Of a stretch of DNA of 64,000 nt, positions 10,641 to 58,232 are shown piece by piece (within the stretch, counting starts at the first letter, position 1; each line of letters begins with the position of its first letter). Origin of the DNA: Gyrodactylus bullatarudis (Eukaryota > Platyhelminthes > Monogenea > Gyrodactylidea > Gyrodactylidae); NCBI GenBank assembly GCA_012064415.1, contig SSNU01000107.1:51394-115393 (forward strand), in the 5' to 3' direction. A program made the translations under genes and the position numbers. The notes under the pieces are model-generated. The model saw only the letters and a list, made by a program, of their open reading frames with translations, did not search any database and was not told the DNA's origin.

Positions 10641-12231
10641 TTATAAATTATAAAGTTTTTTAAATTCTTTTTTAAATTCATCATAATCAAGAGTTTTCAT
10701 CTCATGATTAAGTTTTTTAAATATGTTTTTGGCTTTGTTGAAAATTGATAGCTTTTTTAGATTTCCATATTCAGAAACAATGGAGCGTAGGCCTTGACGA
10801 TTGGAGTTAGCCAGGGGTGAGAGTTTTATTAGGGTAAATGTTTTGAGTTCTCTTCTTAGCCACAAGGAGTTCTTCGTGGATTTCATTTCAGTTTGGTATG
10901 TTGATGACAAAAGGCGCGTAAATCTGTCGATTCTTGAATTTAAGTTTTGAAAGCATATTGAAGAATTGAGTATATGACATAAAATTGTAATTAATCTCAT
11001 CTCCGCAACTTGGGTTGTGTCTAAGATTGTTAGGGTTGAACTGGGGTGATGCATTGAAGACATTGATGAACTTTTCTTGGATGGTGTCAGGGTTTTCTTT
11101 GATACTATGAACGTTTTTATTGGAGAATTTAAAGTATTTGTTCAATTGTTGGTAACCAATTTTGGGTCTTTGTTTAATTTCATTCTTTAGGTTCCTCTCA
11201 ATACGAGCATAAGTCATTGATGTTAGAGATGATATTTGATTTTGTGTGTTGATTAGTAATCTTCTTCCATCAGTAACTGAACAGCAGTATTTGAGTTTGT
11301 TTTCAAGACGATTATTTAGTTTTAATTCGAGATGGTCAATGTTTCTTCTACGCTTTTTAATAGTAGCAATATTATACATTCTATTATAGTAATCAATGAT
11401 GTTGTTTGCGTTGATGTAATTCTCGGGCATAATTGTTATTGTTTTGAAGACGTTGTAGTCAGTAAAATCATAGAAAGAATATTCATTATTCGAAGGCATT
11501 GAATTTTCTGTGAGGTGTGTATCAATAATGCAGAAAATTCCTAAGTGATCTTTGTTGTGATATATATTTTGAGTTTCAACATAGAATGACAGAGTTGTGG
11601 CATTTAGAAATATACAGTCAAGAATATTTTGGCCTCGTGTTGGTGTCGATACTATTTGTTTTAGATTGAAAGATTGTAGTAGTATACCAATATCAGAGTT
11701 TGGGTTGTTCCAGTTTTCATTAGGCATGTTAATGTCTCCCAGAAAAATTAAGTCATCATCAAGGGTTAAGTTTTCATCTATAATGTTAGCAAGTTCTATA
11801 TCAGTTTGGGAGTTTGTATTAGGTTTTCTGTATAAAAGAGCAATATATATCGATTTGGAACTTCCTATTTTGTTAGCTTTAACGATGAGGAATTCGTTTC
11901 CATGAAAGCTGAATTTGTTTGTTGATGATATTTGTATTGTATTTTTATAATAGTAAATCAGGACACCTCCGTGGGGATCATCAGTTCTGTCAGATCGAAT
12001 AACACCAAAGTCTTCAATGTGTAGGCTGTTAGGTATATTTTTATTTGAGAGCCAGGTTTCGGTAAAACAATAGAAGTCATATCTAGTATTAATTAGATGT
12101 ATCCGTAACTGATGAAAAGAAGAGAATAATGAGCGAATGTTTTGGAGAAAAAAGGAGAATTGGAGTCTTGATTGATTCGTCGTCATTGGATTTGTATGAA
12201 ATTTGTAATTACGAGGTAAATGAGTTGTCAA
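10641..12231 (-). pseudogene. LINE ORF2 remnant with AP endonuclease, RT deleted
   Basis: The first 447 residues (12231-10888) are an APE-type endonuclease of a CR1/Jockey-like non-LTR retrotransposon: QNIRSLFSSFH, FTETWLS, IRSDRTDDPHGGVLIYY, FLGDINMPNENW and the catalytic-His region KDHLGIFC are in order. A linker domain follows. After a frameshift near 10890-11060 only a basic C-terminal segment remains (WLRRELKTFT to FKKLYNL, stop at 10641). The whole reverse transcriptase catalytic domain is missing. The matching ORF1 lies at 15260-15931, and a PLE insertion separates the two. Confidence 0.8.
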
Positions 12232-12288
12232 GGCCTTCTTCTGTACATGTGTTGTTAATTGGGGGTTATTATTTACATAAGGAGAAAC

Positions 12289-12300
12289 AATTAATATATT
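12289..12300. repeat. target-site duplication of PLE insertion, left
   Basis: AATTAATATATT here and AATTAATGTATT at 15134-15145 flank the PLE. With one mismatch they are the likely 12-nt target-site duplication made when the PLE entered the LINE between its ORF1 and ORF2. Confidence 0.55.
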
Positions 12301-12373
12301 TATCGGACATAAGTTGCCTGATTTCCTCGAAAATATTTGGAGGTTGCTGACTAGAAGTCATGCTAGTTTAAAG
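12301..12373. repeat. PLE terminal direct repeat (pLTR), 3' copy
   Basis: Matches 15061-15133 with only a few substitutions. The 5' copy lies directly before the ORF start codon at 15055-15057. Confidence 0.75.
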
Positions 12374-23480: not shown

Positions 23481-23629
23481 CGGATGAAAATGTCTAGTAT
23501 TTTGTTACCCTTCGGTCATTTTCATTATTGGATAGTGCAGCACCTATACTTACAAAGTTTAACTAGAAATATTTCGTTATAGGTGCTTAGGTCGTATATC
23601 CCACAGGTACGTCCTATTTGATAATGGAT

Positions 23630-23670
23630 TAGCCCATGTCGCAATGCGAGAGGTCCGAGGTTCAAATTCC
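23630..23670 (+). promoter_or_regulatory. tRNA-like internal Pol III promoter (A-like and B box)
   Basis: GGTTCAAATTCC at 23659-23670 fits the Pol III B box (GGTTCRANTCC). TAGCCCATGTCGC from 23630 resembles an A box at tRNA-like spacing. The second copy keeps the B box (minus strand, plus 51755-51766). This suggests transcription starting just upstream of the ribozyme. Confidence 0.6.
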
Positions 23671-23677
23671 AGGTTGT

Positions 23678-23723
23678 GGCATACTGATGAGTCCAGAAAA
23701 AGGACGAAACGCGCGTATATGTC
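23678..23723 (+). ncRNA. hammerhead ribozyme, canonical core
   Basis: Stem I is GGCATA (23678-23683) with TATGTC (23718-23723), 6 pairs including one wobble. The core is CTGATGA (23684-23690). Stem II is GTCC-loop-GGAC (23691-23705), four perfect pairs. GAAAC is at 23706-23710, with stem III GCGC(G) and predicted cleavage after GTA (23717). The stem III palindrome has almost no loop, the arrangement known from hammerheads that act as dimers. It begins 7 nt after the B box. Confidence 0.88.
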
Positions 23724-24034
23724 TACCATATATGTATACTTAGATTATTTCTAAATGCTTTGTAAGTTTCTTTCGTACTAGTCTCGGTGGGATCCATTAG
23801 TAAGCTGTAACATTCAGCGACATGGGCTAATCCATTACCAAATAGAACGTACCTGTGGGATATACGACCTAAGCACCTAGAACGAAATATTTCTAGTTAA
23901 ATTTTCATTATTATTCATTTTAATCAATTATCATTCATTTATTTTTATTTTTATCTTCACTTATATTTCTTCTCTAAAATAAATAATAATAAAAAATGAT
24001 CGAAGGGTTACAAAATACTAGACATTTTCATGAG

Positions 24035-40560: not shown

Positions 40561-40895
40561 GTAAGCCATTCCGACGAAAATACCACGAAAAGGTGTATTA
40601 TAGATCAAAATTTTGAAAGAAATCCACCGCTCTTTCATTTGAAAATAAAAAAATTCTACAAAAATCCTTCTTTCAAAAGTCGTTTTACACGATTTTTACT
40701 TAAAAGTAGTATTGTAATAATTCATATTTCGCTATATAGGAACACATTTAAGACCTTGTGGATTTAACTTTACAAAATACCTAGCCTCAATAGAAAGACA
40801 AATAAATTCTTGACTTTGAGATGGTTAGCAATATCATCTTTAGCTTTGGATATGCTTTCGATCATTTCTATAGAAAGGCGATGCCTGATGTTATG

Positions 40896-40935
40896 AAGAA
40901 ATAAGTACTTTATTTCAGGCATACTCTTCAGTCTT
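40896..40935 (-). ncRNA. hammerhead ribozyme in left inverted repeat
   Basis: Mirror image of 44073-44112: on the minus strand AAGA, core CTGAAGA, GTATGCCT, GAAA, the stem III hairpin, and TCTT. Confidence 0.6.
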
Positions 40936-41292
40936 TACATGCCAATATAAATACATTAAAAATTACAATAAGAGCAAGGTACAATCTGATTGGTTGGTCT
41001 TTCTTCAAAAGTGTACAATATATGATGTAATTACACGTGTGAAAATGACTAATACATTAAAAGTCCTTCCCCACTTGCACATTGTGGGGAGTGTGTATAG
41101 ACATACATTTGACTTCCAATGTGTACTAATGTATACAGAGATTAATGAATATACAAGTTTAATTTCTTTTAATTTAACATTGTGACAAAAATGATATTGC
41201 TGATCCTCTCAAAGTCAAAAATGTAAAGATGGATTTATGTACAAGAAATAACAAGAAGGTAGAAATGTTCCTAACATCGGAGCTAAGCTTAT

Positions 41293-41481
41293 TTTATTAA
41301 AACTTAGGTCAATATTAGGATTCTCAGCCATGGTCATCCAAACGTTTCGACGGTGATTGTCATCACACGCCTTCTTCAGTGGTACGTCGTCTTTTTGAAG
41401 AAGGCGTGTGATGACAATCACCGTCGAAACGTTTGGATGACCATGGCTGAGAATCCTAATATTGACCTAAGTTTTAATAAA
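41293..41481. repeat. perfect 86-bp foldback with 17-nt loop
   Basis: Arms 41293-41378 and 41396-41481 are exact reverse complements as far as I can read. The right arm encodes the start of the PLE protein (DDNHRRNVWMTMAENPNIDL). The left arm is therefore an inverted duplication of the element's own 5' coding end, and it encodes the same peptide on the other strand. Confidence 0.85.
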
Positions 41482-43729
41482 TTTTATTATAAAACTCTTT
41501 CCCTATTCATTTGTGGAAGAAAGTTGCAAACTCGAAGTGTGGTAAATCGGTAGAAGTGCAACTACTATTGCTAAACAATGGATTGAAAATTGTCAAAAAG
41601 AAGTTATGATTCATCAGCGAATCAAAGATGATTGTATCGCATGGTTGGACAAGAACGTGGATAATAATGTTATTGTTGATACGTCGTTAGAAACCAGTAT
41701 TATAAACCAGTATCTCTTAAACAAATATTCCAAGGGATTGACGATCATAAGAGATACTTGAAAGAGATTGAGGTAATAGATTTTGATAAATTAACTATCA
41801 AACGTCTAAACAAAAGAGTGTAAAATTATATGGATATACAGTTATCACCAACGGATTTGGAGGTATTATCACTAGGTACGAATATGTGAATCCCAGGAGA
41901 AGAGGAACTTATGAATATAGAAGCAAGTGTCGGGTTCGAAAGGTTATTGGATAAAACAAAAACCCTCACTCCCACGACAACAGATGATTTTGATAGTTTA
42001 CAGCTAAACCTGGCCACACTCTGTGAAGAATACAAAACCAAAAAGATGGAATTCCCATTCTTCCAAAGGAGACATTGGACCTCAGTGAACAGGTTAAAAA
42101 GAAACGAAAACATCATCTTATCAAGGTTGGATAAAGGAAATGGTTGGGCGCTGATAAAAAGAAATACTTATATCAAAGGTATGGGGAAACTATTATCAGA
42201 CACAAAATTTAAGAAAACGAAGATCAAATCAGTGAATTATAACCAGACGAAGATGAATCGAATCTACAGTTTCGACCCATCTTGGATATGAGTCAGTCTC
42301 CAACTTGTAATATAGCTAAATGGTTGGTTGAGATCCTCAATCCTATCAAAAGTAAAGTATGCAAGTATTCTCTCAAAGATTTATTTGAATTCATAGAAAC
42401 AATGAAAGAAGTGAATGTAAAGGAAGGAGTAATGTTATCGTTGGATGTGTCTTCTTTATTTACTAACGTCCCATTAATGGGGACAGTGGAGTTCATCGTC
42501 AAAGTCTCCAGAGAAATTGAAGGGTTTCCAGTTCCACCCCTGTTATTGAAGCGTCTTTTATTATTATGTTGTAAGGATGTCGCTTTCTCGTTTGACAATG
42601 AAATTTACGTACAAACAGATGGTGTAGCAATGGGCTCCCCCTTGGGTCCTATCATGGCGGAAATATTCATGGGCAAACTGGAATCAGGTCCTTTATCTGG
42701 AGATATCCTAGCAACAAAGTTGTATAAAAGATAAGTGGATGAATAAAACTTGATAATGAAAGAGACTCCACAGAGATATTAACAAAGTTTAATGAAGCGC
42801 ATCCTAATTTAAAGTTTACCTTGGAAATGGAGGATAAAGATCAAATGCCCTTCTTGGAAGTTCTATTATGCAGACAAAATGATGGATCTTTACAAAGAAA
42901 AATTCATAGAAAGTCTACCTTCACTGGCAAATTATTAAATTTCTACTCTTTTTCGCCAAAAGCAACGAAAGTGGGTTTGGCGATATCACTTTTCAACAGA
43001 TTGGAAAAAATAGTCTCTCCTGAATGCCTACAAGAAGAAAAAGAGTTTCTGAAGGAAAATTTTATAAGTAACAATTATCCCAAAGACTTTATAGATAATG
43101 TGTTGAAAAGGGAAAAACAAAGAGTAATAGAAAAAGAGATGGATAATAAAATAACAGTGATCTTACCATTTAAAGGCGATGTATTGGCGAAAAATAAAAA
43201 GTTAAGAATCAAGCAATGGTGTGACAAAACCTTTCCAAAATTGGAATTAAAATTCATCTTTAAAGCAAATAAGTTGTTCTCAAACAAAACAAAAGATAGA
43301 CCGAACCCAATGGCAGAATCCTTCTTTGTGTAAAAGTTCAAGTGTTTTTGCCAAGCTGAATACATTGGTCAAACCACAAGAAGACTTGGAGATAGGGTGG
43401 CTGAACATTTGTACACTGGCTCAACAGCAGTTAGGCAACATGTTAAGGATTGTGAGGAAAAGGTGTCCCCTGACAATTTTGAAATAATCTTCAGACAAAC
43501 AGGAAACAACTTAGCAGCCCTCAAAACAGCTGAAGCCCTGTTGATACAAAAAGAAAAGCCTAGTCTTTGTGTACAGAAGAAGTTCGTGCAGCCTTCGGTA
43601 TTGCCTAGGCCAATTCTGAAAATTACACACAACATTGAAACAAAAGAAACGCTATACAAACCGAGGGCTCGATCAGTAGATAGAAGTTTAAAACAAACCT
43701 CTATCTTAACATTTTTGTCACTATGTTAA
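41400..43729 (+). pseudogene. PLE polyprotein with dead catalytic site
   Basis: In order: KKACDDNHRRNVWMTMAENP; LSPTDLEVLSLGT; VGFERLLDKTKTLTP; SRLDKGNGWALI (near 42130); a deletion removing the KVHK region; DMSQSPTCNIAKWLVEIL; motif A SLDVSSLFTNVPL; DGVAMGSPLGPIMAEIFMGK; then LYKR, stop, VDE where RYVDD is expected (near 42730), so the catalytic box is destroyed. Linker PFKGDVLAKNKKLR, endonuclease CFCQAEYIGQTTRRLGDRV, AALKTAEALLIQKEKPSLC, and the basic tail follow. It ends RSLKQTSILTFLSLC before the stop at 43727-43729. QTSILTFL (43694-43717) fits Q-x-x-I-x-x-F-L. Confidence 0.85.
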
Positions 43730-44072
43730 ATTAAAAAACCATAAAATGTAACAATTGATATTTCACTATTAACCAATTGTTTAAATAATAATTATTATAA
43801 TCAAATATTGTATATTACATCAATGGAGTATCAACAGTATTACACTTGTACTTGTATATTCATTAATCTCTGTATACATTAGTACACATTGGAAGTCAAA
43901 TGTATGTCTATACACACTCCCCACAATGTGCAAGTGGGGAAGGACTTTTAATGTATTAGTCATTTTCACACGTGTAATTACATCATATATTGTACACTTT
44001 TGAAGAAAGACCAACCAATCAGATTGTACCTTGCTCTTATTGTAATTTTTAATGTATTTATATTGGCATGTA

Positions 44073-44112
44073 AAGACTGAAGAGTGTGCCTGAAATAAAG
44101 TACTTATTTCTT
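44073..44112 (+). ncRNA. hammerhead ribozyme in right inverted repeat
   Basis: Stem I AAGA (44073-44076) with TCTT (44109-44112); core CTGAAGA (44077-44083); GTGTGCCT; GAAA (44092-44095); stem III palindrome TAAGTACTTA-like. All invariant core bases are present. Confidence 0.65.
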
Positions 44113-44144
44113 CATAACATCAGGCATCGCCTTTCTATAGAAAT

Positions 44145-45050
44145 AAATTCTGATCATTATATGTATAGGATTTATTAATTGGTAAGATAGATCCGTATAA
44201 ATTATACTGAAAGAAGAAATTCATGAATTTATGAAAAATTGGACTTTTTGACTTTTTAATTCTGCTATTATTTAGGAAATTATTAAGAACTATATATAAA
44301 TGATTAATGGATGTTCTGAAAGACCCTGTCAGCAATCATAAGCTTAAAATAAAATTCTTCCAAGTCTGGTTAAAAAATGAGATCAAACGATGTTAATAAT
44401 GAGCTGTTGAACAGGTTGAGTATGAATAATACTTATTTTTAGTTGATCTATCGAACTATTAAAAAATCTATTCGCTAAATAAGCGTTTCATGTTAAATTA
44501 AATTAAATACGAAAATATTATAGAATTACTCAATACGAAAAGGTTCTGTTTATTTAAGAAAAACAAAATATAAACTTGAAAAAAGGTTGTTTTATTTTAT
44601 AAAAATTCTTCATATTTTTTCAGATATTTCTAAATTGATGAGCTTGAACAATTGTAGATGCTTTATTTTTTAAAGTTTTACTTTTAACTTTTCATGTGTA
44701 AATTTTTAAATATAAATTCTAAAAAGGAGAAATTTCCTAATTCCTAAATTTACTACTTTCAATCGAAAAAAGATCCATTTTACCTCGGAAAATTGAAGAG
44801 GACAAACAGTTATATTATAATGTTCCATTTCTTCAATATAATTGTCTCCTATCTATGATTTATAATATTCATACAATTTGAGATTTTATCTCCTCCATTC
44901 TCTTTATTTAAGACAAAACTGAGTTTTATTGAGATGAAAGTTATTAAAAAAGCATACTTTATTAGGATAATGTATTAAAATAAGATGTTTGTTGAATTTT
45001 AATCCATTTATAATTTATCACGCTGATGTGAACAACTTCAGCATCCTATT
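44145..45050. other. no identifiable gene
   Basis: AT-rich with no recognisable coding sequence or repeat boundary. Confidence 0.45.
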
Positions 45051-46899: not shown

Positions 46900-48710
46900 T
46901 ACTAAATGGCCTGAACGACCGGAGAAAAGCGGAAAAAAGAGTCTTCAAAGATTTCAAATTAGCAGCGTTTTGCCGAAATCTACAAATCGAAAAAGGCGGA
47001 ATAACCGGTCTGGTGTATCCGGCTAGAAGACTCCTATACAGCATGAAAGAAAAGGTCGAAGAGGAGTTGAATTTTTTATTATCCGAAGGCATCATTTTCA
47101 AGGTGGACAAACCCCTTGTTGCAACCCCCAGTTCCTGTTCCCAAAAAGGAAGGGTCAAGTCGTCCATTGCGCATTTGTGGAGATTACAGCCTAACGTTAA
47201 ACAAAATAGTGGACGTGTCTGGTTATATAATGTCCACTGCGCAAGAAATATTGTTCGAGCTAGCCGACAGCAAGGTCTACTCAGTCCTGGATTTCTCCGA
47301 CGCTTATCTACAACTGAAGCTGGCACCAGATAGCAAAAAGTACACCACAATCTCTATGCACATGGGTTATTTTGGTTATCACACCTTGCAATTCGGCATT
47401 TCTTGTGCCCCCCGAGGAAAACTACTCAAACCTTGAAAAAGAAGCCCTGGGGGTAGTATCAGCTGTCGAGCTTTTTCACAGATATCTTTTCGGGCGGACA
47501 TTCCGCATCAGAACGGACATGAAGCTATTGGAATTCATCATGAAACCTGGTGTAGAGTCGAAAATCTCAACAGATAGAATCAGCAGGTGGAAACTAAAGT
47601 TATCTCAGTATGATTACACTATTGAGCATGTAAAAGGAGTGGACAACCACCTACCTGATCTAATCTCACGTCTCGGAGGCGGTGAATCGGAAGACGGAGT
47701 CGGACCAATGCTAAAGCCGGTAGTTGCTGCTGTGAGTGCAGAAGCTGATCCAGTGATAGAGGAGGTAAAGCGCTACGTCAAGAAAGGATGGCCGAGAAGG
47801 GTCTCTACCGAAATCACCAAGTACAAATCGGTGGCAAATGAGTTAAAAATCGAAGGCGGTGATCTTGTGAGAGAGACGCGTCTGGTTCCTCCTTGTAGAG
47901 AGAGACAGAGCTTCCTGGATAAGGCTCACTCTGGACATCCAGGTATAGTCTTGATGAAACAGCGTATGAGGAAGAAATTGTGGTGGCCAGGCATGGACAA
48001 GGATATAGACAAGTTCGTGCGGGCTGCTCCGTGTGTTGCAAAACACAAAAGAAACAGCACTCTAAAGACCTGCTAGCCTGGCGAGAATGCGAAGAGCCGT
48101 TAGAAAGAGTTAACGTGGACATTGCCACCTGGAACTCTAAGAGAATATTGGTTCTTGTAGATGCTTTCTCCGGATATGTCTATGCGAAGGAAGTACCCAA
48201 CCTGTCTTCTGAGTGCTACAAAAACACCCTGTCTGAGTTCATTTCTTATTTGGGTCCTCCGAAATGTGTGGTAGCCGACAACAGCACAAATTTCAAATCG
48301 TTGGAAACACTTAATCTGTATAAGTCTTTTGGAATCCCATCTTCACTCCTCCTCGACATCATCAGTCGAACGGTCTAGCAGAAAGAGCAAATCAGGATTT
48401 AAAAAGGTATCTGGAGAAAATGCGGTTATCCGAGCCTCGGGACCTGAAAAACACTCTCGTGAGTTTCATGAGACACAAAAACTTCAATGAGACCGCCAAA
48501 GGCTATGTTCCAGCCAGACTGTTCCTGTCCCGGCATGTTCCGAAAGTGGTGGAAGTGGCCATTCAAGAGCGAAAGTGGGAACCCGTTTTTATTCAGCCTG
48601 AAAAAGGTCCTACAATCAAGAGCTCAAGTAACATCTGGACAGACAAAAATGGCCGAACGGCCCATGCCAGTGACGTGCAGCTGCGGACAGCAGATCTGAG
48701 GACGTGTTAA
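46900..48710 (+). pseudogene. Ty3/gypsy pol remnant, GC-richer
   Basis: In order: VEEELNFLLSEGIIFKVDKP; PVPKKEGSSRPLRICGDYSL; VYSVLDFSDAYLQLKLAPDS (RT motif A, near 47290); HTLQFGISCAP. A deletion removes the YVDD box, and RNase H/tether follows: NYSNLEKEALGVVSAVELFH, FRIRTDMKLLEFIM, YTIEHVKGVDNHLPDLISRL. Integrase follows with HSGHPGIVLMKQRMRKKLWW, a Cys pair, NVDIATWN (first Asp), VVADNSTNF (second Asp), and after a shift GLAERANQDLKRYLEK (Glu), then a C-terminal domain ending near 48710. It is more GC-rich than its surroundings. Several frameshifts make it dead. Confidence 0.85.
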
Positions 48711-51536: not shown

Positions 51537-51930
51537 TATTTCGTTCTAGGTGCTTAGATAATATATACCTCAGCTTCGTCTTTTTGGTAATGAATTAGCC
51601 CATGTCGCTGAAAGTTACAGCTTACAAATGGATCCCATCCCGACCTAGTACGAAAGAAACTCTCGGAGCATTTATAAATAGTCCAAGTATGCATCTTTGG
51701 TAGACATATACGCGCATTTCGTCCTCTTTTGGACTTGTGAGTATGTCACTTTCTGGATTTTGAACCTAGACCTATTACATGGTATCTTCCAACGTCTCAT
51801 CTAAATCAGATGTACTTCCATATGCTCTGGACGAGTGGATTTAGCATTTGACTACAAGCGACATGGGCTAATTCAGTATCAGATAAGACGAGCCTGAGGG
51901 ATATATTACCTAAGTACCTAGAATGAAATG
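51537..51930. mobile_element. inverted-repeat element with B box and hammerhead, copy 2
   Basis: The ends (TTTCGTTCTAGGTGCTTAG at the left, CTAAGTACCTAGAATGAAA at the right) and the TTAGCCCATGTCGC segments at both sides match copy 1 at 23.5-24.0 kb. In this copy the ribozyme and B box read on the minus strand. An extra stretch of about 70 nt lies between the A-like box and the B box. Confidence 0.7.
51703..51747 (-). ncRNA. hammerhead ribozyme, core mutated
   Basis: Minus strand: stem I GACATA with TATGTC (six perfect pairs; plus 51742-51747 and 51703-51708), stem II GTCC-loop-GGAC, and GAAAT. The core reads CTCACAA instead of CUGANGA, so catalysis is lost while both stems are preserved. Confidence 0.75.
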
Positions 51931-51934
51931 ATTG

Positions 51935-52920
51935 TAAACAAACTTGGTAAAGTATAGGAAAATGTCTAACCGTAAAAGACCCATGGCTTGAGAGTATTTG
52001 CTAAAAGAGGATTTGAAGTAGATCTTATTGCTAATCCAAAAAGTAGCTTTAACAAAGAGTAGTAAAACAAAAAAAGTAAATTCATAAAATCGAATGTCTC
52101 TCACAAGTAGTGATTTTAAAAAATTAATCAATTCTTCAAGCCTTTCAAGTGAATAGAATGAGAATGAGATGTTGATTTGGATAAGCCATTTCTATTGGCT
52201 GTTTACCGAGTCCTGCATAAAATTAGATTCGGACAATGAAAATTTAACTAAGATCAAGATAAACTATGATAAAAAGTTTGCATAATCCTTGAAAAAAATG
52301 AAAAAGCAATGTTTTTTTAAAAAAGGCAAAGTTATATCTCTTATTAAGAGGTTTAGAAAAAAAGGACTGAATTTTTAATCTTTTCAGATTATTTTAGACT
52401 CACTCTCAAAAAAGGCAAAAAAGGCATTTTGGTCGCCCTAGTAATAACGAATACTAAATTTTTTTCTAAGGAGATATTGTCCAAAAATTGACCATTTTTT
52501 ACACCCTGAAAATAGCTAACTTGGACAATCTCTAAGAGTGTATTTCCAAAAAAATAATCATATATTCTTGAAAATTTTCATAACTTCTCAATAAATCATT
52601 GTATCTTAATGATTTAATGAATTCATTTGAAAGAATATCATTTTTTTCAGAAAATTTGTTAATTATTTATTTCTAGATTCTTAAAACAAAATTATGGCTT
52701 GAGAAAGTTACCTATCCCATATATGATCCACATGGGGCTTAAAGGGTTGAAAAAATTTTGATCTTCTGGTATATTGGACGAATTTTTAAGGAGAATAAAA
52801 TTTATCAAAACTTCTTTTAGTACCAACGTAGCTAAATTATCTCTGGTATATGAAAAATATTTTAGAAATCAATAAATATCAATGAGAATTATCGAGATTG
52901 AAAGAGGGGAAAACTCAACT
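51935..52920. other. intergenic or GlnRS last-intron region
   Basis: AT-rich. The GlnRS donor at 52918-52923 requires at least one more exon further down the minus strand. A minus-strand open stretch at about 52840-52690 contains NLATLVLKE, reminiscent of the NRTVTLKE ending of GlnRS, but I found no acceptor that joins it in frame. Confidence 0.35.
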
Positions 52921-52923
52921 TAC

Positions 52924-54559
52924 TTTGTTTTCCTTCAAGTTGGTATCAAAATCAACTACGAAATAGCCAACACGTTCAAATTGAAATTTGTCCAAAGCTT
53001 TAAGATCACTTGCCCAGCCTCTATCAATAATGCCAGTTTTGATTTCAACAGTTTGGATTAACACATGATAAGAAACCATTTGGATTATCTTCTGGTAATT
53101 TATCAGTAAACAAATTGTTGTACAACCTACATTCACATTTAAATCCATTATGAGAGACCCAATGGATAAAGGCTTTTGGTTTGGGAACTTCCCCAATACG
53201 ACCAGCTTTAGTAACAACCTCAATTATGTTACCTTGAGAGTCTTTTTTAATATCAACACATTCAATGATAAGATTAGCCTGTCTAAGGCCGACACTTTGG
53301 GTACTTGTTAAGCGTTTATAACCCTTTGGTGGCTCAGAGGAGAAGTCGGAAGATTCAATGTAGATGACAGAGGAAATTTTCACTTTATGTTTACTGGAAT
53401 TTTCATTGGCTGGGAAATCTGGTACTTCAACCTCAACTTCATTAATTCCAGGATATAAATCATTCCAATTTGATATGACAACTTTAAGAGGCTCGAGGAC
53501 ACACATTCTTCTCATGGCAGAAATATTTAGATTATCACGCACAACTGCTTCCAAGGACAGTGGATCTAAAATTGTTTGAGTCATTGTTACACCCATTTTT
53601 TCACAAAAGGCATTAATTGCTTCAGGTGGGAAGCCTCTTCTTCTTAAGCCTGATAGAGTATAAAGGCGAGGATCATCCCAATCTGAAACAATACCTGTTT
53701 GGATAAGCTTGAGTATTTTTCTCTTTGACACGACAGCATAGTATAAATTGAGTCTTCCATATTCCCATTGGACAGGACAGTAAATATTAACAGCATTGCA
53801 TAGCCAATAATAAGATGATCTTCGAGCTTGAAATTCTTTTGTGCATAATGAATGAGTAATATCTTCAAGAGAATCATTTAGACAGTGGGTGAAATCATAA
53901 GTTGGATAAATGCACCAACCCGTGCCAGCATTGGGATGGGGTGTGTATTTTATACGATATGCGACTGGATCAACCTTTCCATCTTCCATAACATGTTTAA
54001 GACGAAGAGTTGCATGGCCCTCTTTTATTAAACCATTTTTCATGTCTTCAAATAGTTTTAATGACTCAGGAATTGGTCTTTCTCTCCACGGAGAGAAAGC
54101 AACATTGTGCCCCCTCAGTTCATCACTCTGTTGATGACAGACATAAGCCAGGTTTGAATTTATTAACTGAATTGCGAATTGGTACAATTCATTAAAATAA
54201 TCCGATGCATGAGTGATTTTGTATGGTTTAAAGCCAAGCCATTCAACAATTTCAAGAATTGACTTGAAAAACTTTTCTTCTTCTGTCTCAGGATTTGTGT
54301 CGTCATATCTTAATATGCAAACGCCATTGTTTTTTCTAGCATAACCAAAATTAAAATTTATTGCTTTCGCATGACCAATGTGAAGAATTCCATTTGGCTC
54401 AGGAGGGAAACGTGTACGTACTTGGCCATTAGTTCGTTTCAAATGTTCTTGAAGCAAAATTTTAGTCATGGGAGTGACAACATATCCGGGACTATTGAAG
54501 TTCTCTCCTGGTTTGTGGAAGCGAGTTGCATCACCAGATAATGTCTCAGAAGTTGACAT
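52924..54559 (-). CDS. QARS1: glutaminyl-tRNA synthetase, catalytic part
   Basis: Cytoplasmic GlnRS attaches glutamine to tRNA-Gln. From the ATG at 54557-54559 the protein has [19 protein letters not shown], the class I HIGH motif ([15 protein letters not shown] at residues 60-63), [36 protein letters not shown], and the KMSKS-type loop VVSKRKIL (276-283). A beta-barrel anticodon-binding region follows with [10 protein letters not shown]. After VNPNC (about 53045) the frame must shift by +1 to continue [10 protein letters not shown] to [18 protein letters not shown]. The exon then ends at donor GTAAGT (plus 52918-52923). The final exon is not found. The about 200-residue N-terminal domain usual in eukaryotes is absent: UCP4 starts 143 bp upstream on the other strand. 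Longest in-frame extension reaches 54619 without an ATG. Confidence 0.93.
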
Positions 54560-54702
54560 CAGAATAAAAATTTCAGAAATTGAATCAATTAAAACAATTT
54601 CATGTCTTGTCCTGGTCAAAATGGAGGTTTTTAAATTTTAATAGTTTACTTTTTTGAATTCGATGAAAATTTTTTATTTCGTGATAGTATTTTAACCATA
54701 AG
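54560..54702. promoter_or_regulatory. shared 143-bp gap between divergent GlnRS and UCP4
   Basis: The start codons of GlnRS (minus) and UCP4 (plus) are 143 bp apart, so both promoters and both 5' UTRs must fit here or inside the genes. It is AT-rich. I see no TATA box that I would defend. Confidence 0.55.
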
Positions 54703-56008: not shown

Positions 56009-58232
56009 CTAAATCATCATAGGAAGACCTGTTATGGTCACATTGTAGTTGATCTTTTTGGAAATATTCTTCTTGAGCTGAAAAATAGAGTCAAATGATA
56101 ACAATGAAAAACAAAATATTCAGATGTATAATGAAAAATTAATAGAGGTTATGTAACAAAAGATCAGATTTTTTCTAGTCTAAAAATAAATTAAACCGTT
56201 GTCATCACAGTGTGATGACATGGACTAACACAGTCTAGCAAAATAACACTTTTTCCCTGTGTATACTCTATAAATTATAACAAAATGCTCATCAGATCGT
56301 AATAATATGATTTTTAAATATTCCAATTTGTGTTTTATCAAATTTTTGCTCTAAAAGGTTTATATTAATGAATATATTTGTTGAAAATTTGATTGAATTT
56401 CATTGGTTCTCTCAAAAAAGAGGTTTTTTAAAAAAAATGGGTGATGCGAAGTGGTTTCGGCGACAACTGTAGCTCGCATTCCAATTCTAAAAGAGTATAA
56501 ATAAATCTGTGAAAAATTGTCTACAACTCGTAGCCACAGATTTCTCAGCTACCATCTCTATTTTAGAAGCTATGCTCCATAGTATTTACCGAATTTCAAT
56601 TTCTTTAGTAAAAGTGAAAAATTTAAGTGTCTTTTTGAAGCTGTCATCACGGAATAAAAAGTAATGTTGTAATAAAATTGGAAAATGAGGAACGACAAAT
56701 CCCGGTCAAATACTAACAATAATTTCAATAAAAAAGTAAAACTCACAAATTCAGAAATTTGCTTTGCAACTTTAAAGTACTCTTTGAATTCTTGAACAAT
56801 TTCTTTAATCTTTTCATCATTCTCAATCATCACACTCTGAGTGGTCTTAATTCGGTTCTCTTGAATTTTGATTTGATCTTTGAGTTGTTTAATCTTCTCT
56901 ACAAAACGGTCAACATATCCGGGAGTGTGTCTGACCATAAACAGACGAGTATTATTTTCATTATTCAACCAGTTAATTTTTTCTTCTATTACCTGGATGA
57001 ATTCAATAACTTTTTTAGGTGAGATGTCTCTGAATTCAGGGGGAAGATTTTGAAAAATCTTTGATATCACAGCATAAAGCATTGGGTTTTGTTCAATTTC
57101 AATTATTTTAGAGAGTTCATGTTCATCTAACGAGAATAGATACTGGATGAAAAACGATTTAATTTCAATCAAATCATTAATTAACGCTGTACGACCACGA
57201 CTAGTATCAATAAAATCAAGAGCATGTTGACCTTCAGCTTGATCTTTAAGATTTGTCAGTGAGGTTTCATCAATTTTCACATCATTAGTTGCGTCCGCAA
57301 TACTCTCTATCACATAATGATTCTCAGAGTTCTCCTCTTCAACTTGTATATCAAAATCGATTTCAGTATTTAGATCAAGATCAAAATCAAGTTCCCCAAC
57401 ATCTTCGTCTTGAGTTTGGGTGCATTTCTTTCTTTCATCTTCTAGCATCTTTTGAGTTTGATCAAGACACTTTCTAATCACTGATGGTGCATGACCAACT
57501 TCATATTCATAAAACGTTGCTCGGGAATTTTTTATGATTGTCGATATAGCCCGGCATTTTGAGATAGATGGGTAAAAATGAGCAATAAAATCCTTGTAAA
57601 AGTTAACAGGTTCAGAACATTCTACCATTGTATCAGAGAATTCATGGATTTTATCAAGAAAATTAACAGCCTCTTCAAGAATGTTGATTTTAAAGTTATC
57701 ATCGTCCAAGTTGAGCTCACTTTTAAGTGAATTGTACAGATCTTCTTTATTTTTTAAACTGTTTTGATATTGCTTTAATCTTGACTCGAGATTTAATTTT
57801 TGCTTAGCAAGGTCAGCTTTTTGATTAGATAACTTTGGCATGACCTGATTAGCCAATTCATTTAATCTTTCAGCGTATTCAGCGATAATTAAATCGTTAT
57901 ATTCGAATTTAGATTGAATTCCTTTCCAAACACGAACAGAATAATTCTCTCTAAAATATGAATCTTTTGATGTATCATTTTTTTGTATAAATTCAGCTAT
58001 TTGAACTACGTAATCATAGTTGGCTATAAAAAATAAGAAGATTTTCTTACATATCGGTCTTTTTTCCAATTGGAACGATGACGTTTCTTCTTCGGCCTTT
58101 CTAATTGAATTATTAATTTCTGCAAGGGACTTAAAATAGTCAGTTTTAATAATTTTCCTCTCAACAAGCCAATCTAAAAAGCATATAAAGAAACTTCTAA
58201 CTCGTTATTTCACTTGATCGAATTGTAATCAT
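56009..58232 (-). CDS. CDK5RAP3: CDK5RAP3, UFM1 ligase cofactor
   Basis: Exons on the minus strand are 58232-58202, 58173-58051, 58023-56747 and 56077-56009. They give an unbroken 499-residue protein (human 506). Introns are 28, 27 and 669 nt, all GT-AG. Start MITIRSSEIT joins WLVERKIIK, as in the human LLDWLVDRR segment. Further matches: NSRATFYEYEVGHAPSV, an acidic middle (DEDVGELDFDLDLNTEIDFD), ALDFIDTSRGRTALINDLIE, RHTPGYVDRFVEKIKQLKDQ, coiled coils at about 80-130 and 430-470, and the ending ISKKINYNVTITGLPMMI (human ISKRYSGRPVNLMG). The protein works with UFL1 and UFBP1 at the endoplasmic reticulum to direct UFM1 onto ribosomes. The pathway is absent from most fungi, which supports an animal source. 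An intact single-copy host gene, converging on UCP4. Confidence 0.93.
58024..58050 (-). other. 27-nt spliceosomal intron in CDK5RAP3
   Basis: GTAAGA to TATAG on the minus strand, 27 nt, phase 1, length divisible by three. It could be read through as nine extra residues (CKKIFLFFI), but that hydrophobic insert has no counterpart in the family, so splicing is the better reading. Confidence 0.8.
58174..58201 (-). other. 28-nt spliceosomal intron in CDK5RAP3
   Basis: GTTAGA to TTTTAG on the minus strand, 28 nt, phase 1. It contains an in-frame stop (TAG) if retained. Removal joins the 31-nt first exon to NWLVERK. Confidence 0.88.

Follow-up and report, generated by a model that had tools for sequence, protein, structure and literature searches.

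Insertion scars of a hammerhead-bearing flatworm retrozyme point to mobilisation by Penelope-like element machinery

Positions 23530-23900 of the window, the 64,000-nt stretch of Gyrodactylus bullatarudis DNA analysed here, read as a single insertion of a non-coding hammerhead-bearing repeat, a metazoan retrozyme, in a flatworm genome. The insertion and its relatives elsewhere in the genome suggest a non-autonomous, tRNA-SINE-like retrozyme whose RNA was very probably inserted by machinery of the Penelope-like element (PLE) type, that is, by two-strand target-primed reverse transcription. We favour this reading because the scars, with outward inverted ends, a ~35-nt one-sided tail and AT-rich duplications, match the published PLE signature. 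The case would thus join a known kind of element (a retrozyme, SINE-like) to a PLE insertion scar that we did not find reported for retrozymes, and to a near-strict two-site rule. The features on which the argument draws are as follows, with unit positions, prefixed c, running from the predicted ribozyme cut.

23484 to 23522, no strand: left terminal inverted repeat (TIR) of an unrelated MITE-like host element, 39 nt, 95% identical to 23993 to 24031
23518 to 23529, no strand: target site duplication (TSD), left copy, ATTTTCATTATT
23530 to 23642, minus strand: antisense short retrozyme copy, with start site B (c212) as its outer 3' end and c100 at the inner junction
23642 to 23900, plus strand: longer retrozyme copy, with start site A (c183) as its outer 3' end; truncated inwards at c305, the A box being lost
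23659 to 23670, plus strand: B box, GGTTCAAATTCC
23678 to 23723, plus strand: type I hammerhead ribozyme, predicted cut at 23717/23718; Rfam RF00163, 29.2 bits, below the gathering score
23901 to 23912, no strand: TSD, right copy, ATTTTCATTATT
23993 to 24031, no strand: right TIR of the same MITE-like host element
40811 to 44140, plus strand: Penelope-like element inserted in the same layout (arms inverted and facing outwards, tail on one side, candidate TSD)
51537 to 51958, minus strand: another, diverged retrozyme insertion, with an antisense stretch c172>c303 and two sense pieces, c278>c312 and c99>c199; its ribozyme core is broken

An earlier note had described 23485-24030 as an inverted-repeat element. 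Both inverted pairs lie where it placed them, the inner one (23554-23642 / 23817-23905) spanning 89 nt at 96% identity and the outer one 39 nt at 95%, but neither belongs to the ribozyme-bearing unit: the inner pair was produced at insertion, and the outer pair is that of the unrelated host element. Mapping on other copies identified 23817-23900 as the 3' part of the repeat unit and 23530-23642 as the same 3' part reversed, and the inner repeats are accordingly read as two head-to-head, outward-facing copies of one retrozyme 3' end, truncated at different points. The retrozyme entered the unrelated TIR element with a 12-bp target duplication. The whole interval is one repeat inside another, a retrozyme within a MITE-like element, because the joined site is continuous in 7/7 copies of the host element: after removal of 23530-23900 and one ATTTTCATTATT, all seven fetched copies (L111-L117) align across the joint in one piece, four of them with a 6-base gap at least 25 bases from the joint. 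The interrupted MITE-like TIR element (23484-24031) has at least 14 other places in the genome, a figure obtained with the first ~46 nt of the host-element query (13 matching nearly whole, one over 42 nt) when 40 of the 47 candidates had been scored.

Inverted repeats and TSDs would also be expected of a foldback or MITE-like DNA transposon that had captured a ribozyme. We consider this very unlikely, since arm lengths vary by locus from ~12 to >400 nt, the two outer ends differ and the outer inverted pair comes from another element. Chimeras formed during amplification frequently take the form of inverted duplications, and the arrangement could in principle have arisen during whole-genome amplification or assembly. 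That such an artefact explains it is similarly improbable: the joints lie within one repeat family, they are bounded by TSDs and by the same two end regions at many loci, and the uninterrupted site is found elsewhere.

The ribozyme and the B box were found where the earlier note had claimed them. The match to Rfam Hammerhead_1 (RF00163) at 23678-23723 scores 29.2 bits, with an E-value of 4.5e-5 over 701 bases searched and 0.0041 over the whole window; the gathering score of this family is 34, and a search of the whole window at the gathering threshold gave no matches. Both core words, CTGATGAG and GAAAC, are present. Genome-wide, the core pattern occurs at 58 places with at most two mismatches, 33 of them exact, although these need not all belong to this retrozyme family (in L082 and L083 the match to the unit covers just 30 nt), and the control pattern, the core read backwards, occurs at none. 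The two loci just mentioned (L082 1028-1057, C154:348327; L083 1024-1053, C163:288126) share an identical hammerhead-like core, GTGATGAGTCCTCACTGATGACGAAAC, which is perhaps that of a second hammerhead family.

Direct repeats of 32-93 nt at a spacing of 360-380 nt were seen in all five loci tested, in copies reading on past their own 3' region, which indicates a permutable unit of ~380 nt. From the predicted cut, its order is middle part, arm, start site A (~c180), site B (~c215), 5' region, A box (c278), B box (c322) and hammerhead (c341-c6). Tandems are partial only: there were no dimers or arrays among 88 insertions, the longest copy being 452 nt (1.19 units). With a GC content of 0.405 and a longest stop-free run of 66 aa in the doubled unit, the retrozyme contains no open frame with reverse transcriptase (RT) and GIY-YIG endonuclease and encodes no protein.

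By the A/B box consensus, longer copies carry two boxes at tRNA-like spacing, an A box TGGACGAGTGG at c278 and, at c322, a box of the GGTTCAAATCC type; the B-box columns c322-c332 were compared across 59-65 copies. ARAGORN recognised no tRNA gene in any of ten retrozyme loci (0 in 10/10), so that of the suggested tRNA-derived SINE the boxes and their spacing stand while a recognisable tRNA does not, and the label 'tRNA-like' is used here for the two boxes and their spacing alone. The broader suggestion of a retrozyme-like, tRNA-SINE-like element is supported by the 380-nt non-coding unit, the type I hammerhead, the A and B boxes of longer copies, the many copies and the target duplications. 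Pol III boxes are carried by the SM-alpha retroposons.

Within the ribozyme, columns with a second base at ≥20% are 351, 359 and 363 (arm pairs), joined by 358 when all copies are counted; all four are the N of CTGANGA or lie in loop II, as expected if source copies stay active. Mean conservation of the ribozyme (0.906) is not above that of the rest of the unit (0.881-0.936). Both core words are kept in 43 of the 68 ribozyme-bearing copies, a count biased upwards by a sample partly selected by that core. A 31-nt arm piece has 598 genomic places at no more than three mismatches and none in the control, a number suggestive of several hundred insertions, each having one arm or two. Copies lacking the B box or the ribozyme, named by the earlier note as evidence against its reading, thus do occur (598 arm places against 58 core places); in the mapped loci they are accounted for by 5' truncation. 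Folding of the 3' region c100-c226 was no better than that of shuffles (z 0.66), with a hairpin AGCACCTA/TAGGTGCT in the centroid.

A diverged copy had been placed at 51537-51930. It is present on the minus strand, over 51537-51958, where a B-box-like GGTTCAAAATCC and the remnant of a hammerhead can still be read, but its ribozyme core is broken, reading CTCACAAG where CTGANGAG is required. Elsewhere in the window, a GlnRS coding stretch (53045-54637) has its closest match in Cichlidogyrus casuarinus (67%), followed mostly by other flatworms, and Pfam matches mark an endonuclease piece of a non-LTR-like element (10888-12357), an RNaseH/integrase piece of an LTR-like element (47318-48076) and a CDK5RAP3 gene (56570-58204).

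Insertion scars were compared in a non-random sample of 88 insertions from fetched loci, 67 chosen by best match or ribozyme core pattern and 21 by the exact 3' arm. One cluster at a locus edge was skipped and clusters with fewer than 45 mapped bases were dropped; clusters more than 120 bases apart were counted separately, with the result that L038 and L107 each entered the count as two and L055 lost its second end. Target duplications of at least 10 bp flank 36 of the 88 insertions (mode 12, mostly 10-13 bp), compared with 7 of 871 mismatched flank pairs (0.8%), and their AT content is 82% against 72% in the flanks (26 insertions). All 57 opposed junctions are head-to-head and none is tail-to-tail; head-to-head joints occur in 44/67 insertions from the best-match or ribozyme-pattern loci and in 13/21 from the 3'-arm loci. 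The outer ends are as a rule element 3' ends pointing outwards, the same stretch being copied twice. One pair (L038 540-1419), with its A end on the left and its B end on the right, has ~450 nt of other sequence between its halves.

These outer ends fall at two start sites ~35 nt apart, A at ~c174-185 and B at ~c206-219. By BLAST ends, both could be classified in 37 of the 88 insertions (in the other 51, at least one end was not classifiable as A or B), and 36 of the 37 have one end at A and the other at B (A/B 17, B/A 19, A/A 1, B/B 0; binomial 5.5e-10). L035, the sole A/A case, has further bases with a B-type GCACTATTCA before its duplication. Among insertions with a TSD, ten of the 36 rows were left out and the remaining 26 all read A/B, three of them (L006, L035 and L076) set by eye, the script having called L035 and L076 A/A; the ten omitted rows (L011, L031, L037, L075, L088, L090, L094, L096, L102 and L109) had no second 3' end, an unclear end or a TSD probably due to chance. 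Judged by position alone, both ends lie in c165-c230 in 43 insertions; the two ends differ by at least 20 positions in 37 of these and by less in six. L035, L076 and L094, among the six, show signs of A and B ends; L003 (2427), L013 and L099 may be same-site pairs and so exceptions to the two-site rule. A further 14 insertions have an outer end outside c165-c230, and four TSD-bounded insertions (L075, L088, L090 and L096) have a single 3' end. These insertions, together with those whose ends were not classifiable, weigh against insertion by PLE-type machinery. Because second copies as short as 12-14 nt, as in the TSD-bounded L004, L024 and L027, were missed by BLAST, one-sided copies are overcounted by that method.

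A SINE moved by a LINE could acquire 5' inversions by twin priming, which leaves a single RNA 3' end in place while an internal part is inverted. The TSDs, the 5' truncation and the joints, which often overlap by a few bases (chance P of an overlap of two or more, 0.16), would suit such an origin. It nevertheless appears improbable here, since a 3' start site is the rule at both outer ends, a single stretch is present in duplicate and the end region c161-c225 contains no poly(A).

At the inner ends, none of the 57 junctions joins positions within five of each other (median distance 104), and of 36 the A copy is longer in 18 and the B copy in 18. The two inward ends are thus truncated independently of each other and joined. 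The same measurements bear on a self-priming hairpin, in which one strand, perhaps the antisense one, folds back and one arm is copied from the other, as suggested for rotifer Penelopes. A published section of PMC3846280 argues for self-priming from palindromes at inverted junctions, an 86-nt palindrome lies near the inner junction of the PLE in our window, and alleles are common to both arms of a retrozyme locus. Against this, the inner ends of the retrozyme junctions do not coincide and the outer ends are as a rule at different start sites, which makes self-priming an unlikely account of these insertions.

Allele sharing between arms bears on the number of RNAs as well. In 42 insertions whose arms share at least 50 columns, arm identity is 94.2% within loci and 90.4% between them; at diagnostic columns, 157 of 179 cells agree within loci, compared with 51% between loci. 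Alleles absent from all other loci number 17 in both arms and 77 in one arm. On the simplest reading, each insertion would have had one source RNA. Two RNAs drawn from a general pool are disfavoured by this sharing of alleles between the arms of a locus; the sharing would also be compatible with two RNAs from a single source locus, or with arms that were converted later.

Only three of the 80 copies reaching c10 stop in c10-c1, most reading through the ribozyme cut, so the templates were mostly uncut at the ribozyme site, or religated. A linear template cut by the ribozyme is disfavoured by the same count. Stops are raised over c271-c340, the tRNA-like region, but are not limited to that stretch. 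As 24 of 128 copies extend past c270, upstream of the A box, some templates would begin elsewhere or be circular. Ten copies have a second-pass inner end below c205: six at c130-134 (L004, whose inner end was corrected by eye, L005, L017, L023, L040 and L075), two at c146 and c181 (L012, L077) and two at c109 and c165 (C319, C157). The clustering at c130-134 suggests a real 5' end and with it a linear template. Seven other copies (L018, L026, L029, L033, L044, L072 and L096) end at c205-216, where the partner primer would sit on a circle, which favours a circular template. The mobile circular-RNA system suggested by the earlier note may apply, though no copy exceeded 452 nt and most templates were uncut at the ribozyme site.

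PLEs are present in this genome, because RT and GIY-YIG share one open frame at two places: at C159, a 732-aa open frame combines an RT match with a GIY-YIG match over its cut-off, and at C207 RT and GIY-YIG (over cut-off) occupy one 804-aa frame. The PLE in the window has outward inverted arms (40864-41158 / 43850-44144) that are 99.7% identical, a tail of 53-57 nt at its left end only (from 40811) and an 11-bp candidate TSD, AAATAAATTCT, at 40800-40810 and 44141-44151. Its RT frame (42243-42734) matches PF00078 at 24.5 bits, below cut-off, and a second frame (43334-43729) matches GIY-YIG at 13.5 bits, likewise below cut-off, and is 60% identical to the place at C159. The coding frame is in several pieces, and the palindrome near the inner junction lies at 41293-41481. 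Another PLE, at C273, shows perfect outward arms of 290 bp; no TSD was found there, which counts against the proposed reading. A protein search with the window RT frame returned RT-domain matches, many of them from flatworms, with none named Penelope among the 120 matches listed. More than 100 related RT places were listed in the genome; comparison of the window PLE and the end pieces of three others revealed no sequence common to retrozyme and PLE ends, so that no partner PLE emerged from these few, a further point against the PLE reading. One retrozyme insertion (L055, C267:435394) has an RT match as its neighbour at ~1.4 kb, within an open frame of 784 aa (C267:436787-437923).

We propose the following route for insertion by PLE-type machinery. 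A PLE GIY-YIG endonuclease would cut AT-rich DNA in a staggered manner, leaving 3' overhangs of ~12 nt, and a single retrozyme RNA would be reverse-transcribed from both 3' ends, with A as the start for one and B for the other. Head-to-head joining of the resulting two antisense cDNAs would follow, and fill-in would yield the target duplication. The hammerhead may process or recycle the RNA, most reverse-transcribed templates being presumably uncut there or religated. We also put forward, tentatively and with somewhat less than even confidence, a coupled PLE integration step, in which the two DNA ends of the break are as a rule primed at different sites (A and B) of one RNA held by a dimeric enzyme; retrozymes would then be natural reporters of this step, and the ribozyme would be unneeded for the template.

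Metazoan retrozymes, as characterised in sections of PMC7229834 and PMC7761336, are non-coding repeats of 150-450 nt with a type I hammerhead and GC below 50%, show TSDs in some cases, and occur in hosts that include platyhelminths. The present family resembles these non-LTR retrozymes in its type I hammerhead (below the gathering score here), its 380-nt non-coding unit and its GC of 0.405, and differs in its head-to-head insertion, two end sites, A and B boxes, and partial tandems only, with no long arrays among the insertions examined. The words 'inverted' and 'polymerase III' are absent from the main text of PMC7229834. A passage of PMC7761336 describes metazoan retrozymes as lacking a conserved motif that would help to deduce an autonomous partner, and PLE mobilisation of animal retrozymes was proposed earlier, in parts of both articles, from co-occurrence and shared features. 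Our searches of openly licensed PMC papers brought up no report in which such mobilisation was shown from insertion scars. Compared by description only, and with the relevant part of PMC8490949, schistosome SM-alpha SINE-like retroposons and W elements share the flatworm host, the SINE-like character, the type I hammerhead and the short stem III; the same part mentions TSDs, and inverted repeats within W elements around small-RNA units, which are not outward 3'-end copies as here.

Sections of PMC3846280 describe pLTRs in inverted orientation, one of which bears a 31-bp tail, and TSDs that measure 8-10 bp in some copies and are absent from others. Outward inverted terminal copies, a tail on one, short AT-rich TSDs and partial tandems are common to PLEs (PMC3846280, PMC11167929) and the retrozyme. 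Many PLEs contain a type I hammerhead, and helix III of the retrozyme hammerhead is likewise very short, whereas the retrozyme encodes no protein. The purified Anolis PLE protein cuts and extends both strands, at AT-rich sites (PMC11167929). It uses two adjacent internal start sites whose interval equals the tail, and ribozyme cutting is unneeded in vitro; top and bottom strands are reported not to differ in their start site in vitro, a result that leaves coupling neither demonstrated nor excluded (PMC11167929).

The retrozyme scars themselves thus carry the PLE signature, at many short and easily read loci, and they disfavour fold-back priming for this retrozyme family. The two-site rule is in keeping with the purified PLE protein, which begins at two adjacent start sites and extends both strands (PMC11167929). 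The suggested rule of one A end and one B end from one source RNA would make the little-known integration of PLEs testable.
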